From positions 124,001 through 188,000 of the forward strand of contig NZ_JAHBGB010000023.1 of NCBI RefSeq assembly GCF_018390555.1: a stretch of DNA of 64,000 nucleotides. The letters are read 5' to 3'. Below, in pieces: positions 1,192 to 58,285 of the stretch. Within the stretch, counting starts at the first letter, position 1. Each line of letters starts with the position of its first letter. Below the pieces are notes generated by a model. It searched no databases and was not told the DNA's origin. It saw nothing but the letters and a program-made list of their open reading frames with translations. The position numbers and the translations under genes were made by a program. The DNA comes from Ancylobacter oerskovii. GTDB lineage: Bacteria; Pseudomonadota; Alphaproteobacteria; Rhizobiales; Xanthobacteraceae.

Positions 1192-1318
1192 GCTCCGCTT
1201 GCCGCGTCTCTTTCTTGCCCTCTCCCCGTTGGGGAGAGGTGGCCCGCGCAGCGGGTCGGTGAGGGGGAACGCGATTGGGAAGCGCAGAAGACCCCTCGCC
1301 CCCTCCCTCTCCATCCGG
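1192..1318. repeat. Dispersed hairpin repeat, family 1, copy A
   Basis: Between the small membrane peptide gene and mmsA the 345-base gap holds a repeat with two hairpins: CCTCTCCCC/GGGGAGAGG (1219-1227 with 1231-1239) and CCCGC/GCGGG (1243-1247 with 1251-1255), followed by GTCGGTGAGGGG. About 50 bases are identical in inverted orientation to copy B at 7110-7150, and the right half matches copy C near 30556-30620. No coding function is apparent. Confidence 0.8.
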
Positions 1319-2950: not shown

Positions 2951-3012
2951 GGGGTCCTCCTTGGGAGCTTGCCGCGAAAATTCAGTTGCTGGGCGAATCC
3001 CGCCTGCCTGCC

Positions 3013-3100
3013 GTCACGGCCGGGCCCGACCCGGCCATCCACGCCTTCGGCCGGGTGCTCGCTGGCGGGTGGATCCCCGGGTCAAGCCCGGGGGGATGAG
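3013..3100. repeat. Dispersed palindromic repeat, family 2, copy A
   Basis: In the 280-base mmsA/lysR gap lies a GC-rich element with the pattern GGCCGGG...CCCGGCCATCCACG, a short spacer and an inverted GGTGGATCCCCGGGTC. The same pattern (CCGGGCATCCACG ... CGTGGATGGCCGGG) recurs at 30721-30808. Elements of this look are common between genes in alphaproteobacteria and resemble REP-type sequences. Confidence 0.6.
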
Positions 3101-5867: not shown

Positions 5868-5979
5868 CTGTCGCCGCCTCCCGCGCTCCTGTCACCGCTC
5901 TACCCGTCCGCCGGCCGGCCGGCAATCCGGTGACTTCTGGCCGGCCTGCCCAATATCCCCGCAGAGTGGTCACAAAAAG

Positions 5980-6000
5980 CATATTGCATATTGGATCCAA
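5980..6000. promoter_or_regulatory. Putative GntR operator of the hydroxyproline operon
   Basis: A perfect 10-bp palindrome TTGGATCCAA (5991-6000) overlaps a tandem direct repeat of CATATTG (5980-5986 and 5987-5993). AT-rich palindromes of the form TTGNATNCAA are typical sites of FCD-type GntR proteins. It lies 47 bases before the first operon gene, where bound repressor would block transcription. Confidence 0.5.
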
Positions 6001-6046
6001 AAATTGGAAGCTCGCCGTCACCCTATTTCCGACCGGAGTTCCGCCC

Positions 6047-6943
6047 ATGTGGTCTGGCATCCTGCCCGCCGTCACTGCCAAGTTCACCGCCGACGACACG
6101 CTCGACATCAAGGAGATGGAGAAGAGCTTCGCCTGGCAGATCGCGTCCGGCGTCGACGGACTCATCGTCAACGGCTCGCTCGGCGAGGGCCCGATGCTCT
6201 CCCATGACGAGCGGCTCGACGTGCTGCATGTGGCCAAGAGCGTCGCCGGCGGCCGCCCGGTGCTGATGACCATCGCCGATGCCGCCACCCGCGACTGCGC
6301 CAGCCTCGCCGAGCGCGCCGCCAAGGCGGGCGCCACCGGCGTGATGGTGGTGCCGAGCCTCGTCTACCACACCAATCCGAAGGAAACGGTGGCCACCCTC
6401 TCCACCGTCGCCGCCGCCGCCGACCTGCCGGTGATGATCTATTCCAACCGCGTCGCCTACCGGGTCGACGTGACGCTGGAGATCATGGAGGCGCTCGCCG
6501 CCGACAAGCGCTTCGTGGCGATCAAGGAATCCTCCGACGACATCCGCCGCACCACCGAGATCATCAATCGCTTCGGGGATCGCTACGACGTGTTCACCGG
6601 CGTCGACAACCTCGCCTTCGAGGCGCTGGCCGCCGGCGCGGTGGGCTGGGTCGCCGGTCTCGTGGTCGCCTTCCCGGAGGAGACGGTCGCCATCTACCAG
6701 CTGATGAAGGCCAAGCGCTACGAGGAGGCGCTCGCCATCTACCGCTGGTTCCGCCCGCTGCTCGATCTCGATGTCTCGACCTATCTGGTGCAGAATCTGA
6801 AGCTGGTCGAGGCGCTGGTCACCGGCACCACCGAGCGGGTGCGCGCGCCGCGGCAGCCGCTGGAAGGCGCGCAGCGCGCCCATGTGGAGAAGCTGGTCGC
6901 CGAGGCGCTCGCCCGGCGCCCGCTGCTCGCCAAGGCGGCGTGA
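6047..6943 (+). CDS. Dihydrodipicolinate synthase-family protein, probable 1-pyrroline-4-hydroxy-2-carboxylate deaminase
   Basis: 298 residues, a (beta/alpha)8 barrel of the DapA/NAL family. The Schiff-base lysine is Lys160 in FVAIKESS, and NGSLGEGPMLS (42-52) replaces the GTTGE motif of true DapA. The usual DapA tyrosine motif is altered (IYSNRVAYRVDV), so it is not a lysine-pathway enzyme. In hydroxyproline catabolism a family member deaminates 1-pyrroline-4-hydroxy-2-carboxylate to 2-oxoglutarate semialdehyde, and the three following genes encode the other steps. The ATG at 6047 has GGAG about 9 nt upstream. It is the first gene of the GntR-controlled operon; a repeat of about 200 bases separates it from the next gene. 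Confidence 0.82.
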   Translation: MWSGILPAVTAKFTADDTLDIKEMEKSFAWQIASGVDGLIVNGSLGEGPMLSHDERLDVLHVAKSVAGGRPVLMTIADAATRDCASLAERAAKAGATGVMVVPSLVYHTNPKETVATLSTVAAAADLPVMIYSNRVAYRVDVTLEIMEALAADKRFVAIKESSDDIRRTTEIINRFGDRYDVFTGVDNLAFEALAAGAVGWVAGLVVAFPEETVAIYQLMKAKRYEEALAIYRWFRPLLDLDVSTYLVQNLKLVEALVTGTTERVRAPRQPLEGAQRAHVEKLVAEALARRPLLAKAA

Positions 6944-6959
6944 GGGCTGGCGGCTACTG

Positions 6960-7172
6960 AAGCCGAGCGACAAAGCTCCCTCTCCCCGCACCGAACTCGG
7001 CTGCTGCCGGGTTCGGCATTCCATAAGGTCAAAATCGGAGACATCCGATTTTGACGGAGAGGGATGGGGTGAGGGGTCTTCTTCGCTCCCCGATCGCCAG
7101 AGCCCCTCACCGACCCGCTGCGCGGGCCACCTCTCCCCAACGGGGAGAGGATAAGAAAGAGGCAAGGCCATC
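6960..7172. repeat. Dispersed hairpin repeat, family 1, copy B
   Basis: This long copy fills most of the 289-base gap inside the hydroxyproline operon. It has three or four hairpins: AACTCGGC/GCCGGGTT (about 6992-7012), TCAAAATCGG/CCGATTTTGA (7029-7038 with 7045-7054), CCCGC/GCGGG (about 7115-7127) and CCTCTCCCC/GGGGAGAGG (about 7130-7150). The left half matches copy C in the same direction; the right half is the inverse of copy A. It should be transcribed with the operon. Confidence 0.85.
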
Positions 7173-7232
7173 TCCTGCCGATGTCGGCAAATCCGACGCC
7201 GGACGCGCGAAACCATGAGAACACAGGGCATC

Positions 7233-8471
7233 ATGAGCGACGAGGTGGTGATCGTCGGGGCCGGCATCGTCGGCCTCGCCATCGCCTTCCATCTGCAGGG
7301 CGAGGGGCGCCGGGTGCGCCTGATCGAGCGCGGCGGGGTGGCGGAGGGGGCCAGCCGCGGCAATGCCGGCGCCTTCGCCTTCACCGACATCCTGCCGCTC
7401 GCCTCGCCGGGCATCCTGCGCAAGGCACCGAAATGGCTGCTCGATCCCCTGGGACCGCTCGCCATCCCGCCCGCCTATCTGCCCAGCATCGTGCCGTGGC
7501 TCCTCCGTTTCTGGCGGGCGAGCCGGCCGGACCGCTACCGCGGCAGCCTCGTGGTGCAGGGCGAATTGATGCGCGTCGCCGCCGCCGCGATGGAAGCGAT
7601 GGTGCGGGGGGCGGGGCTGTCGCATCGGGTCCGCGCCGACGGCAATCTCCAGCTCTATGAGAGCGAGGCCGAGCTGGCCGCCGCGCAGCACGGCTGGGAT
7701 CAGCGCGCCCGCGCCGGCATCGTCTTCGAGCATGTGCGCGGCGCCCGGCTCGCCGAGCTCCAGCCCGGCCTCGCGCCGCGCTTCGTCGCCGGCACCTTCA
7801 CCCCGCACTGGAAGACGGTCGACGATCCCTATCATTTCGCGCTCGCCCTGTTCGAGGCGGTGATGGCCCGCGGCGGCGCGATCACCCATGGCGAGGTTGC
7901 CGCGCTCGTGCCGACCGAGACCGGGGTGCGGGTGAGCCTTCGCGACGGCACCCGGCTCGATGCCGGGCAGGCGGTCATCGCCGGCGGCGCCTGGTCGCGC
8001 CCGCTGGCCGCCGGGCTCGGCGACGCCATCCCTTTGGAGACCGAGCGTGGCTACAACACCACTTTGCCCCCCGGCGCCTTCGACCTCAGGCGCCAGCTCA
8101 CTTTCGGCGGTCATGGCTTCGTGGTGACGCCGCTGGTGACCGGCATTCGCGTCGGCGGCGCGGTCGAGCTCGGCGGGCTGAAGCGGCCGCCCAATTTCAA
8201 GCGCTCCGAGGCGATGCTGGCGAAGGCGGCGGCCTTCCTGCCCGGTCTTCGGACCGGCGGCGGCACGCAATGGATGGGTTTCCGCCCCTCGCTACCGGAT
8301 TCGCTGCCGGTGATCGGCGCCTCGAAGGCGAGCGAGCGCATCGTCTACGCCTTCGGCCACGGCCATCTCGGCCTGACCCAGAGCGCCGGCACCGGGCGGA
8401 TCGTTGCCGATCTCATCATGGGGCGCCGGCCGCCGCTCGACCTCGCCCCGCTTCGGGCGGACCGCTTCTAA
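7233..8471 (+). CDS. FAD-dependent D-amino-acid (D-hydroxyproline) dehydrogenase
   Basis: About 412 residues if the second ATG (7233, giving MSDEVVIVGAG) is the start; an in-frame ATG at 7215 would add six residues and neither has a strong SD. The DAO-fold flavoprotein starts with the Rossmann motif VVIVGAGIVGLAIAFHL and ends with the second FAD contact YAFGHGHLGLTQSAGTG. Between them GFRPSLPDSLPVIG is typical of DadA/HypO-like dehydrogenases. Given the neighbours, it probably oxidises cis-4-hydroxy-D-proline to 1-pyrroline-4-hydroxy-2-carboxylate, feeding the deaminase encoded upstream. Substrate is inferred from context; a general D-amino-acid dehydrogenase is the alternative. Confidence 0.85.
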   Translation: MSDEVVIVGAGIVGLAIAFHLQGEGRRVRLIERGGVAEGASRGNAGAFAFTDILPLASPGILRKAPKWLLDPLGPLAIPPAYLPSIVPWLLRFWRASRPDRYRGSLVVQGELMRVAAAAMEAMVRGAGLSHRVRADGNLQLYESEAELAAAQHGWDQRARAGIVFEHVRGARLAELQPGLAPRFVAGTFTPHWKTVDDPYHFALALFEAVMARGGAITHGEVAALVPTETGVRVSLRDGTRLDAGQAVIAGGAWSRPLAAGLGDAIPLETERGYNTTLPPGAFDLRRQLTFGGHGFVVTPLVTGIRVGGAVELGGLKRPPNFKRSEAMLAKAAAFLPGLRTGGGTQWMGFRPSLPDSLPVIGASKASERIVYAFGHGHLGLTQSAGTGRIVADLIMGRRPPLDLAPLRADRF

Positions 8472-30461: not shown

Positions 30462-30640
30462 AATCGGCTTCTTTCCCTCTCCCCGCCCGAACTCGGCTGC
30501 GGCCGAGTTTGGTTCCGGCAAGGTCGAAACCGGAAACATCCGGTTTCGACGGAGAGGCGGCGGCCCGCGCAGCGGGTCGGTGAGGGAGACGGCATCGGGA
30601 AGCGAAGAAGAGCCTTCTCCCCGAAAGGGAAGCCGGGTGT
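30462..30640. repeat. Dispersed hairpin repeat, family 1, copy C
   Basis: First part of the 423-base gap after the Lon-domain gene. It has hairpins AACTCGGC/GCCGAGTT (about 30490-30509) and TCGAAACCGG/CCGGTTTCGA (30524-30533 with 30540-30549), then CCCGC/GCGGG and GTCGGTGAGGG. Relative to copy B the second hairpin differs by two compensatory base-pair changes. No open frame that looks real lies here. Confidence 0.85.
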
Positions 30641-30720: not shown

Positions 30721-30808
30721 TGCCCGGGCTCGTCCCGGGCATCCACGTCTTCGGCCCGGTGCATTTGTGAGACGGCGTGGATGGCCGGGACAAACCCGGC
30801 CATGACGT
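30721..30808. repeat. Dispersed palindromic repeat, family 2, copy B
   Basis: Second part of the same gap: CCGGGCTCGTCCCGGGCATCC at the left and GGATGGCCGGGACAAACCCGG at the right, separated by about 30 bases, form a long imperfect inverted repeat. It matches copy A at 3013-3100 in its conserved CCGGGCATCCACG core. Confidence 0.65.
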
Positions 30809-52360: not shown

Positions 52361-52768
52361 TTACCCGCCGGCCAGTTCCACCGGCACGCCGCGCCGCAGC
52401 GAGTTCGACACCGTCGACATCTCCCAGGCGCGGCGCAGCACCAGGCCGGCATCGGCGTCTTCCGGCTGCACCGCGATCCGCGCCTTCACCCGCGCCGCCG
52501 TCGCCAGCAGCGGCGTGCCCTCGAAGTCGATCTCCACGCTCACCGCCGCTTCCGTCACCTCGATGCCGAGCTGCGCGGCGGCGTAGTGCAGGTCGTTGCA
52601 GAGGCAGCCGCCAATGGCGAGTCCCAGCAGCTGGCCGCCATTGAAGCCGAGCCCGTTGCCGCCGGCGACGCCTTCGGCGCGATCCACCGTCACCGTGTGG
52701 CCGCCGGCCCAGCCCATCGCGGCCCGGGTGTCGGGAACGCTGCGCAGTTCTACCGTCATCGTCGCCAT
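52361..52768 (-). CDS. OsmC-family protein, copy 1
   Basis: 135 residues from ATG 52768, GGAGG 9 nt upstream. OsmC/Ohr fold: GGHTVTVDRAEGVAGGNGLGFNG, then the N-terminal cysteine region GGCLCNDL with Cys55 and Cys57. The usual second conserved cysteine in the C-terminal helix is absent: the segment reads STVSNSLRRGVPVEL. Classic OsmC/Ohr proteins use two cysteines to reduce organic hydroperoxides; this subfamily carries a CxC instead, so peroxidase activity is uncertain. It shares about 63% identity by eye with copy 2 at 53181. Confidence 0.85.
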   Translation of the reverse strand: MATMTVELRSVPDTRAAMGWAGGHTVTVDRAEGVAGGNGLGFNGGQLLGLAIGGCLCNDLHYAAAQLGIEVTEAAVSVEIDFEGTPLLATAARVKARIAVQPEDADAGLVLRRAWEMSTVSNSLRRGVPVELAGG

Positions 52769-52920
52769 GGGCTCGATCCTCCGTTGCCGTCCGGTGCGCC
52801 AGCGCAGTCCTCGGCCTGCCGCCGCGGGGCGCCGGGCGGTCATCGTAGCGGCCGTCGGCCGGGGAACAACCGGCGGACAGGCGATGAGGCGACACGCCCC
52901 GACCGCAGGTGGCGCGATGC

Positions 52921-53180: not shown

Positions 53181-53588
53181 TCAGGCGGCCGCGAGTTCCA
53201 CCCGCACGCCGCGGCGGAGCGAATTGCCGACCGCCGAGGCCGCGAAGGCCCGGTCGATCAGTTGCTGCATGTCGACGTCCCGCGGCAGGGCGCTCGCCTG
53301 CGCGGTGAGGCGCGCGCCGACGGCCATGGGCGGCTCGCCGGCGAAATCCACTTCCACGCTCACCGCCACCTCGGTGAGGATGACCCCCATCGCATGGGCG
53401 GTGGTATGCAGATCGTTGCAGAAGCAGCCGCCGATGGCGAGCGCCAGCAGCTGGTTGCCGTTGAAGCCGAGGCCCGCGCCTCCGGCTACCCCCTCCGCCC
53501 GGTCCACCGTCACCGTATGGCCGCCGACCCATCCGGTGGCGGCCTGGGTGCCCGGCATGCTCCTCAGCTCGACATGCGTCGTCGCCAT
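53181..53588 (-). CDS. OsmC-family protein, copy 2
   Basis: 135 residues from ATG 53588 with GGAGG upstream. Same architecture as copy 1: GGHTVTVDRAEGVAGGAGLGFNG, GGCFCNDL with Cys55 and Cys57, and a C-terminal SAVGNSLRRGVRVEL without cysteine. The two proteins have equal length and about 85 identical residues of 135, so they arose by tandem duplication. The C-terminal third is most variable, apart from NSLRRGV. Copy 2 is the upstream gene on this strand and could share a promoter region with copy 1 through the repeat-containing gap. Confidence 0.85.
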   Translation of the reverse strand: MATTHVELRSMPGTQAATGWVGGHTVTVDRAEGVAGGAGLGFNGNQLLALAIGGCFCNDLHTTAHAMGVILTEVAVSVEVDFAGEPPMAVGARLTAQASALPRDVDMQQLIDRAFAASAVGNSLRRGVRVELAAA

Positions 53589-53712
53589 GGTCGCCTCCCG
53601 GTTCGCGTCCTCGCCGGCGGTATTCATGGACCGGCGAAAGACGCGCCATGCTCCTCCGCCGCGGCCGATCCCGCAAGTCCCTTTGCCGTGACCGCCGCCG
53701 GGCCTGCCGCCG

Positions 53713-58189: not shown

Positions 58190-58285
58190 GACCTCTCCCC
58201 CGCGAGGTCCGTCGCTGCCGGAAAGGGCAGCTCCCTCTCCCCGTGGGGGAGAGGGCTGGGGTGAGGGGGGCTTCGCGCGGTGGTT
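58190..58285. repeat. Dispersed hairpin repeat, family 1, copy D
   Basis: A short copy in the 247-base space between the epimerase and EamA genes. A 10-bp perfect stem CCCTCTCCCC/GGGGAGAGGG with a GTG loop lies at 58233-58255, followed by TGGGGTGAGGGG as in copy B. It might also act as a terminator-like structure for the EamA transporter gene, which ends at 58310. Confidence 0.75.

Follow-up and report, generated by a model that had tools for sequence, protein, structure and literature searches.

Compensatory base changes usually count as strong evidence of RNA function. In the window, by which we mean the whole stretch of 64,000 nucleotides of Ancylobacter DNA analysed here (from contig C16 of a draft genome of 5.48 Mb with 99.8% completeness), two copies of a repeat hairpin differ in just this manner, and the locus raises the question whether the pairing is held in a transcript or by the way in which the DNA is copied. 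The initial annotation had reported two arm differences between the copies B and C, both of them compensated. The letters and coordinates of these arms proved right, and a 37-nt pattern of the hairpin matched twice in the window and not once in 100 shuffles.

The hairpin was found as it had been described, yet the feature to which it belongs is larger and comprises a two-hairpin unit, a host stem and a core (Table 1). Copies B and C share a unit of 86 alignment columns, in which a host stem, CCCTCTCC/GGAGAGGG, is placed around a first hairpin (H1), a linker and a second hairpin (H2); H2 is the covarying hairpin and contains the two compensated pair differences. The consensus sequences of H1 (AACTCGG-nTGTTn-CCGAGTT) and H2 (AAGTCGG-nAACAn-CCGACTT) are inverted relatives of each other. 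A palindromic repeat of about 95 bp, the core, bears the two-hairpin unit in its terminal hairpin loop; in copy B the core adjoins the unit, has another hairpin at its far end and ends near 7150. The covariance model R1 recognised copies B (E 2e-27) and C (E 1e-23), with E 0.009 for the best other place in the window. At least four copies of one element had been counted in the 64 kb; of the four, only B and C carry the covarying hairpin, whereas A is a core truncated at one end and D is half a core.

Table 1. Positions of the repeat copies A to D and of their parts in the window.
Feature	Position	Strand	Remarks
Copy A, core without two-hairpin unit	1218-1312	-	one short-loop terminal hairpin, 1218-1240
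Copy A, other end	1305-1312		truncated; single arm CCCTCTCC
Copy B, two-hairpin unit with enclosing host stem CCCTCTCC ... GGAGAGGG	6978-7063	+	R1 104.8 bits, E 2.2e-27; alignment A1
Copy B, host stem, left arm	6978-6985	+	partner 7056-7063
Copy B, hairpin H1	6991-7016	+	11 pairs; tetraloop TGCT (TGTT in 80/134 copies)
Copy B, H1-H2 linker	7017-7027	+	strongly variable
Copy B, hairpin H2	7028-7055	+	12 pairs, covarying
Copy B, arms of H2	7029-7038 and 7045-7054		TCAAAATCGG with CCGATTTTGA
Copy B, core	7056-7150	+	starts with the right arm of the host stem
Copy B, facing arms within core	7069-7076 and 7103-7110		GTGAGGGG faces CCCCTCAC
Copy B, core hairpin	about 7112-7128		
Copy B, right terminal hairpin of core	7130-7150		short loop
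Copy C, two-hairpin unit in host stem	30475-30558	+	at the core end adjoining the CGCGCAGCGGG hairpin; R1 92 bits, E 9.7e-24
Copy C, arms of H2	30524-30533 and 30540-30549		TCGAAACCGG with CCGGTTTCGA
Copy C, core	30551-30632	+	
Copy D, half core	58233-58270	+	terminal hairpin CCCTCTCCCCGTGGGGGAGAGGG + CTGGGGTGAGGGG

The covariation postulated from copies B and C was borne out by further copies. In the first 18 copies 11 pairs were changed on both sides, compared with 4.3 in shuffles (0/500) and at most one in slid registers. Because these copies had been chosen by a hairpin rule, covariation was recounted on a set found with a sequence-only profile. In 458 kb of loci of 11 Ancylobacter genomes this profile recognised 156 separate copies, of which 134 are nearly complete and 56 come from the own genome; as the loci were fetched around earlier matches, this number does not amount to a full count for the other genomes. 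Columns 54-75 of this set read GC in 71 copies, AT in 48, CG in 2 and TA in 2, with a possible residual bias towards paired copies since the profile was built from the 18 copies and the loci were first found by similarity or model. A cross-genus alignment gave the same picture: 47 cells were changed on both sides compared with 10.1 in shuffles, H1 being nearly invariant there because it was searched exactly. The covariation in the stems of H1 and H2 is strong and general.

The explanation that we consider likely is that copy B is a composite, nested palindromic repeat containing a REP-dimer, REPIN-like unit that spreads as DNA and whose pairing is kept at the DNA level. A core of about 95 bp, ending in hairpins, can hold the H1/H2 unit of about 65 bp (the REP dimer) in a hairpin loop. 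The unit would spread as DNA by a copying process that needs the hairpins, probably in single strands, so that hairpin-competent copies would be the ones that multiply. Local DNA processes, namely arm-to-arm template switching and conversion between copies, may moreover restore the pairing in place.

The unit and the core are both repeated in high number. In the own genome (G000) the core motif has 79 matches at up to two mismatches compared with 8 for the reversed control, and it was found in 27 of 30 Ancylobacter genomes. Model R1 gave 110 matches in the own genome at E <=10, 150 of 5295 candidates being scored and one place often being counted on both strands. Most unit matches were found in one clade, G000, G004, G024 and G027, whose members have the highest numbers among 61 genomes (71, 65, 73 and 48, both strands counted). 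Five Ancylobacter genomes contain core matches and zero unit matches, whereas G035 contains 33 unit matches and zero core matches; unit and core are therefore separate parts.

Outside the genus the unit was followed by means of its hairpins. Exact matches to the 22-nt H1 number 73 and come from 69 stretches of public genomes, the hosts being Ancylobacter, Xanthobacter, Aquabacter, Chelatococcus, a Rhizobiaceae strain and several metagenome bins. By a simple hairpin rule 63 of the 73 are followed by a second hairpin, although in at least four of the 63 this is another hairpin; among the ten H1 sequences lacking a rule-found partner, several show on visual inspection an H2 that is imperfect or cut. 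A model of H1, linker and H2 that omits the host stem matched in 39 of 297 genomes of the order, belonging to 23 of 117 genera, no more than 18 candidates being scored in each genome. The sequences flanking the unit vary (CCCTCTCC, CCCTCTCCCGC, ACCTTCTCCC, CATGCA, ATGCCCC, GTCCTCCG and others), many of them being variants of CCCTCTCC. The order-level set consisted of 21 loci, two of which were not cut out correctly. In 13 of the 19 readable loci the unit is enclosed by a complementary word of six or more bases, compared with 4.2 expected from shuffled flanks, and six loci had no outer stem. In other genera the unit occurs without the core, often within other palindromes, and the family is an example, spread over many genera, of one repeat nested in the loops of other repeats.

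Several other arrangements were seen. On the reverse strand of L124 at about 2037 and in G024 (contig C22, near 357930-357980) a terminal hairpin holds H1 alone in its loop, so that a single long stem, perfectly paired, extends from CCTCTCCCCAT through CCGAACTCGGC around the loop TGTT. Tandem arrays were found in A. sonchi (L127, from 272), consisting of fused pieces of H1, linker and H2, and in Chelatococcus asaccharovorans (L182, about 4400), consisting of H1/H2 blocks. The complete genome G022 has 53 core matches, which lie mostly in one direction at about 2.3-5.0 Mb and mostly in the opposite direction elsewhere; the strand bias of the best arc has p 0.04 by permutation, and GC skew from 20 samples was too noisy to place the origin.

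The copy B site could be read in 29 of 30 species, G023 giving no orthologous site. Core and unit are present in G000, G004 and G024, and G027 has the core with the short loop GTCG; these four species form one group in the tree. In the 25 other species the sequence is different, often with other palindromes by eye, and G020 has a core-like palindrome. Filled and empty sites, as looked for in a mobile element, are thus both found at the copy B site, and further orthologous elements also differ by presence or absence of the unit in the terminal loop. The difference between the filled state and the short loop of G027 may reflect a gain or a loss (branch support 0.64). From these sequence comparisons the unit is probably mobile. 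The orthologues of copy B in G004 and G024 share a linker and an H2 stem unlike those of copy B, whereas a copy on another contig of the own genome matches copy B at 98% identity over 176 bp, suggesting that conversion or a second insertion at this site is likely.

In many of the 29 species the gap orthologous to positions 6944-7236 of the window contains a different palindromic repeat, and hence it looks like a hot spot of turnover for such repeats.

We considered three alternatives to the explanation given above. The first is that the unit is immobile and is shaped by mutational homogenisation alone, quasipalindrome correction keeping the arms and spread taking place only by conversion between existing cores. 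Template switching can create and maintain paired hairpins (PMC8794818, Monttinen and Loytynoja 2022, available text), and the orthologous copies do change in place. We compared 31 copy pairs with homologous flanks on both sides; ten of 41 aligned pairs had been dropped by eye, being further pairs of the same sites or not aligning as one unit, and the 31 are partly non-independent. Their 706 stem pairs comprise 564 that are the same, 90 with a one-sided change, 43 compensated and 9 changed on both sides and unpaired. The 43 compensated pairs, of which 16 are of the transversion type, compare with 4.4 expected from independent change, although some of the copy pairs taken as orthologous may reflect conversion by other copies or repeated insertion into the same loop. 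Compensation accumulates with distance: in the nine copy pairs that are at least 90% identical, 13 changes are one-sided and 2 compensated, which is how neutral decay would look. Uncompensated arm changes had been named beforehand as the observation that would argue against selection on the structure, and with 90 one-sided to 43 compensated changes this observation was in part made.

The excess of compensated changes in place, the closer likeness of copy B to distant copies of its own genome than to its orthologues and the lack of a transposase match in the Y1/RAYT searches (see below) would all suit homogenisation. It leaves unexplained, however, why, in many families, the unit lies inside host palindromes that differ in sequence and why the consensus loops keep a fixed orientation. 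Compensated changes produced by DNA processes are a likeness to the hairpins of PMC8794818, as far as its available text describes them; here, in contrast, the compensated pairs are unclustered (4 adjacent compared with 3.3 expected, p 0.43), so that template switching over several pairs has left no positive footprint, and the consensus loops are not inverted. We therefore consider homogenisation alone to be unlikely. Loop inversion was likewise rejected as a footprint of template switching: inverted consensus loops were found in 0 of 134 copies for H1 and in 0 of 134 for H2. One weak hint is the H2 loop variant TACA, whose reverse complement TGTA occurs in 4 copies compared with 1.7 expected, suggesting that the loop orientation is not strict.

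The second alternative, which we judge quite unlikely, is a structured RNA (a 3' UTR stabiliser, an attenuator or a source of small RNA) with pairing selected in the transcript. In RNA the G.U pair is tolerated, the A.C pair much less so. Leaving aside the 22 of 156 copies with more than eight gaps, the mispairs in H1 and H2 of 134 copies were 90 GT, 83 AC and 78 others (GT against AC, p 0.65). As a control, 32 distinct tRNAs in the loci of the own genome gave 33 GT and 0 AC among 669 pairs, the zero being somewhat favoured by ARAGORN, with which the tRNAs were found and which selects for pairing; GT:AC in H1 and H2 differs from that of the tRNAs with 6e-9 (Fisher). Over all 156 copies GT:AC was 65:46 in H1 (p 0.09) and 47:51 in H2, and the one-sided changes at the orthologous copies were 38 GT, 27 AC and 24 others (p 0.21). 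With GT about equal to AC, unlike in tRNA, the pairing of H1 and H2 looks held at the DNA level, and we regard this as well supported, although H1 over all 156 copies and the short host stem (see below) lean towards GT. On the ratio of 90:83, RNA selection on H1 and H2 was rejected. The initial annotation had attributed the covariation either to selection or to a copying mechanism that keeps the structure; a copying mechanism fits, whereas RNA selection on these two hairpins is not supported. Measured against tRNA, the covariation is strong and yet not RNA-like, which calls for caution in the covariation-based discovery of bacterial RNAs.

A structured RNA would be in line with the strong covariation, with the outer host stem, which leans towards GT (23 compared with 11 AC, p 0.06), and with the sites themselves. 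Of 126 element sites in the fetched loci one was at a locus edge and 19 overlapped open reading frames according to a crude caller; the annotation of the copies as intergenic fits B and C, the copies checked. The remaining 106 sites lie in 59 tandem, 40 convergent and 7 divergent gene gaps, i.e. mostly after genes, whereas the other intergenic gaps of the same loci are 46 tandem, 7 convergent and 9 divergent (p 0.0007). The elements are enriched between convergent genes. Copy B itself lies between co-directional genes (5930-6943 and 7215-8471), a DapA-like gene and one like FAD-dependent amino-acid dehydrogenases, the matches being below curated cut-offs; copy C has as neighbours an unassigned gene and a convergent RND transporter-like gene (match below the curated cut-off). 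An RNA is argued against not only by the mispairs but also by the changed pairs at orthologous copies, which are mostly uncompensated, by the five congeners with core and without unit match, and by Rfam, which had 0 matches at gathering score in the window and in the locus a best score of 22.6 bits, with 35 needed.

Two further candidates were rejected. The sole match in copy B that resembles an intrinsic terminator, 7161-7179, is outside the hairpins. Kissing of the loops of H1 (TGTT) and H2 (AACA) was considered as well: some copies show a joint change of both loops (CTATTG/CAATAG, CTGATG/CATCAG), but the H1 loop TGCT is present in 15 of 134 copies while the matching H2 loop AGCA occurs in 3 copies, compared with 8.6 expected, and on account of this deficit the kissing-loop reading was not adopted.

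A RAYT/TnpA-REP-like partner had been suggested for the repeats, and the search for a transposase covered the Y1/RAYT family. No match to Y1_Tnp (PF01797) was found in the own genome, with 10 of 14 control genomes positive, nor in any of 30 Ancylobacter genomes (mostly drafts, 91-100% complete) at a stricter setting with 5 of 14 controls positive. The search covered the own genome, 60 relatives and 297 genomes of the order, and over these 297 there was no association (7 of 39 unit-bearing compared with 35 of 258 other genomes, p 0.46), so that the suggested partner was rejected. Next to the hairpins no unpaired tag of the GTAG/CGTC type was present; pairing of the two flanking columns holds in 25 of 25, with CG, UA and GC as variants, and in Ancylobacter the GAC beside H2 is for the most part paired, with covariation. 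Ordinary RAYT-mobilised REPINs are thus very improbable, for all their inverted small hairpins, high copy number, intergenic sites, patchiness between species and common compensatory changes (PMC3116915, available text), given hairpins lacking a GTAG-type tag and the Y1_Tnp results in the genus and the order.

Returning to a nested repeat that spreads as DNA, a more specific version of it is tentative: the unit could be a miniature mobile element found throughout the Hyphomicrobiales which targets the loops of pre-existing DNA hairpins and is moved by a hitherto undescribed, non-Y1 enzyme that recognises the TGTT/AACA loops by their orientation on single strands folded into hairpins.

Such a repeat resembles several known ones. 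REPINs are inverted pairs of REPs, linked to RAYT (PMC3116915, Bertels and Rainey 2011, available text). H1 and H2 as inverted relatives likewise form a pair of REP-like hairpins, apparently the unit of spread, and show compensatory changes; REPINs, however, go with RAYT, and none was found with the Ancylobacter unit. The unit is REPIN-like in its working, but as neither RAYT nor the tag was found we class it as a variant and not as a member of the REPINs or REPs.

The CGTC-tagged REPs are, according to the available text of PMC3733652 (Di Nocera et al. 2013), small palindromes, mostly of alpha-proteobacteria, with predominant head-to-head dimers and no dedicated transposase; their stems of 8-9 bp start with two A-T pairs and their loops have 4-5 nucleotides. 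The unit shares the alpha-proteobacterial palindrome dimer, the A-T-led stems, the tetraloops and the lack of a transposase match. In A2, columns 3-4 with 21-22 are AU in 25 of 25, columns 41-60 AU in 25 of 25 and columns 42-59 AU in 22 of 25, and pairing often extends past these stems. As far as PMC3733652 describes those REPs, two differences are evident: the unit has no unpaired CGTC, the bases beside its stems being paired and covarying, and throughout one order it occupies the loops of palindromes that vary in sequence. A further likeness is that the same text has three REP families of other species within larger palindromes, two of them as dimers. G-T pairs are interpreted there as pointing to RNA function; for the Ancylobacter family the GT:AC count does not support this. 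The same text states the spread of alpha-proteobacterial REPs without RAYT as an open question, for which the Ancylobacter family provides a testable case.

Insertion sequences that specifically target REPs (PMC1525189, Tobes and Pareja 2006, available text) are also mobile sequences inside another palindromic repeat; those bear a transposase, whereas the insert described here is a non-coding unit of about 65 bp. Br-REP1 of Bradyrhizobium, as given in the available text of PMC5082802, is a REP hairpin with flanking palindromes, located in 3' UTRs and with fast turnover between related species. The hairpin with flanking palindromes and the fast turnover between relatives are similar, but the printed consensus CCGGAATCTCGAGATTCCGG differs in sequence. 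The literature searched did not contain the letter strings of H1 and H2, nor anything on the Xanthobacter palindromes. The RIME elements of rhizobia, mosaic intergenic palindromes with hairpin ends of the CTCCCC type, are presumably similar.

Some further observations concern the window and its relatives. Positions 3012-3048 and 30771-30807 are inverted copies of a CGTCA[TC]GGCCGGG...CCCGGCCAT-CCA palindrome; in form it corresponds to the CGTC-tagged REPs as described in the available text of PMC3733652. A similar palindrome occurs in Xanthobacter sp. YC-JY1 (L128) and there contains the two-hairpin unit in its loop. In X. autotrophicus AM3 and AM5 and in X. aminoxidans many short-read contigs (L121, L123, L143, L154, L157, L158, L166, L171, L173 and others) break off no more than about 100 bases away from the H1 hairpin, which looks as though it halted assembly. 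The window also contains a 194-nt direct repeat (52577-52770 and 53397-53590) with a spacing of 820 and 78% identity between its copies.
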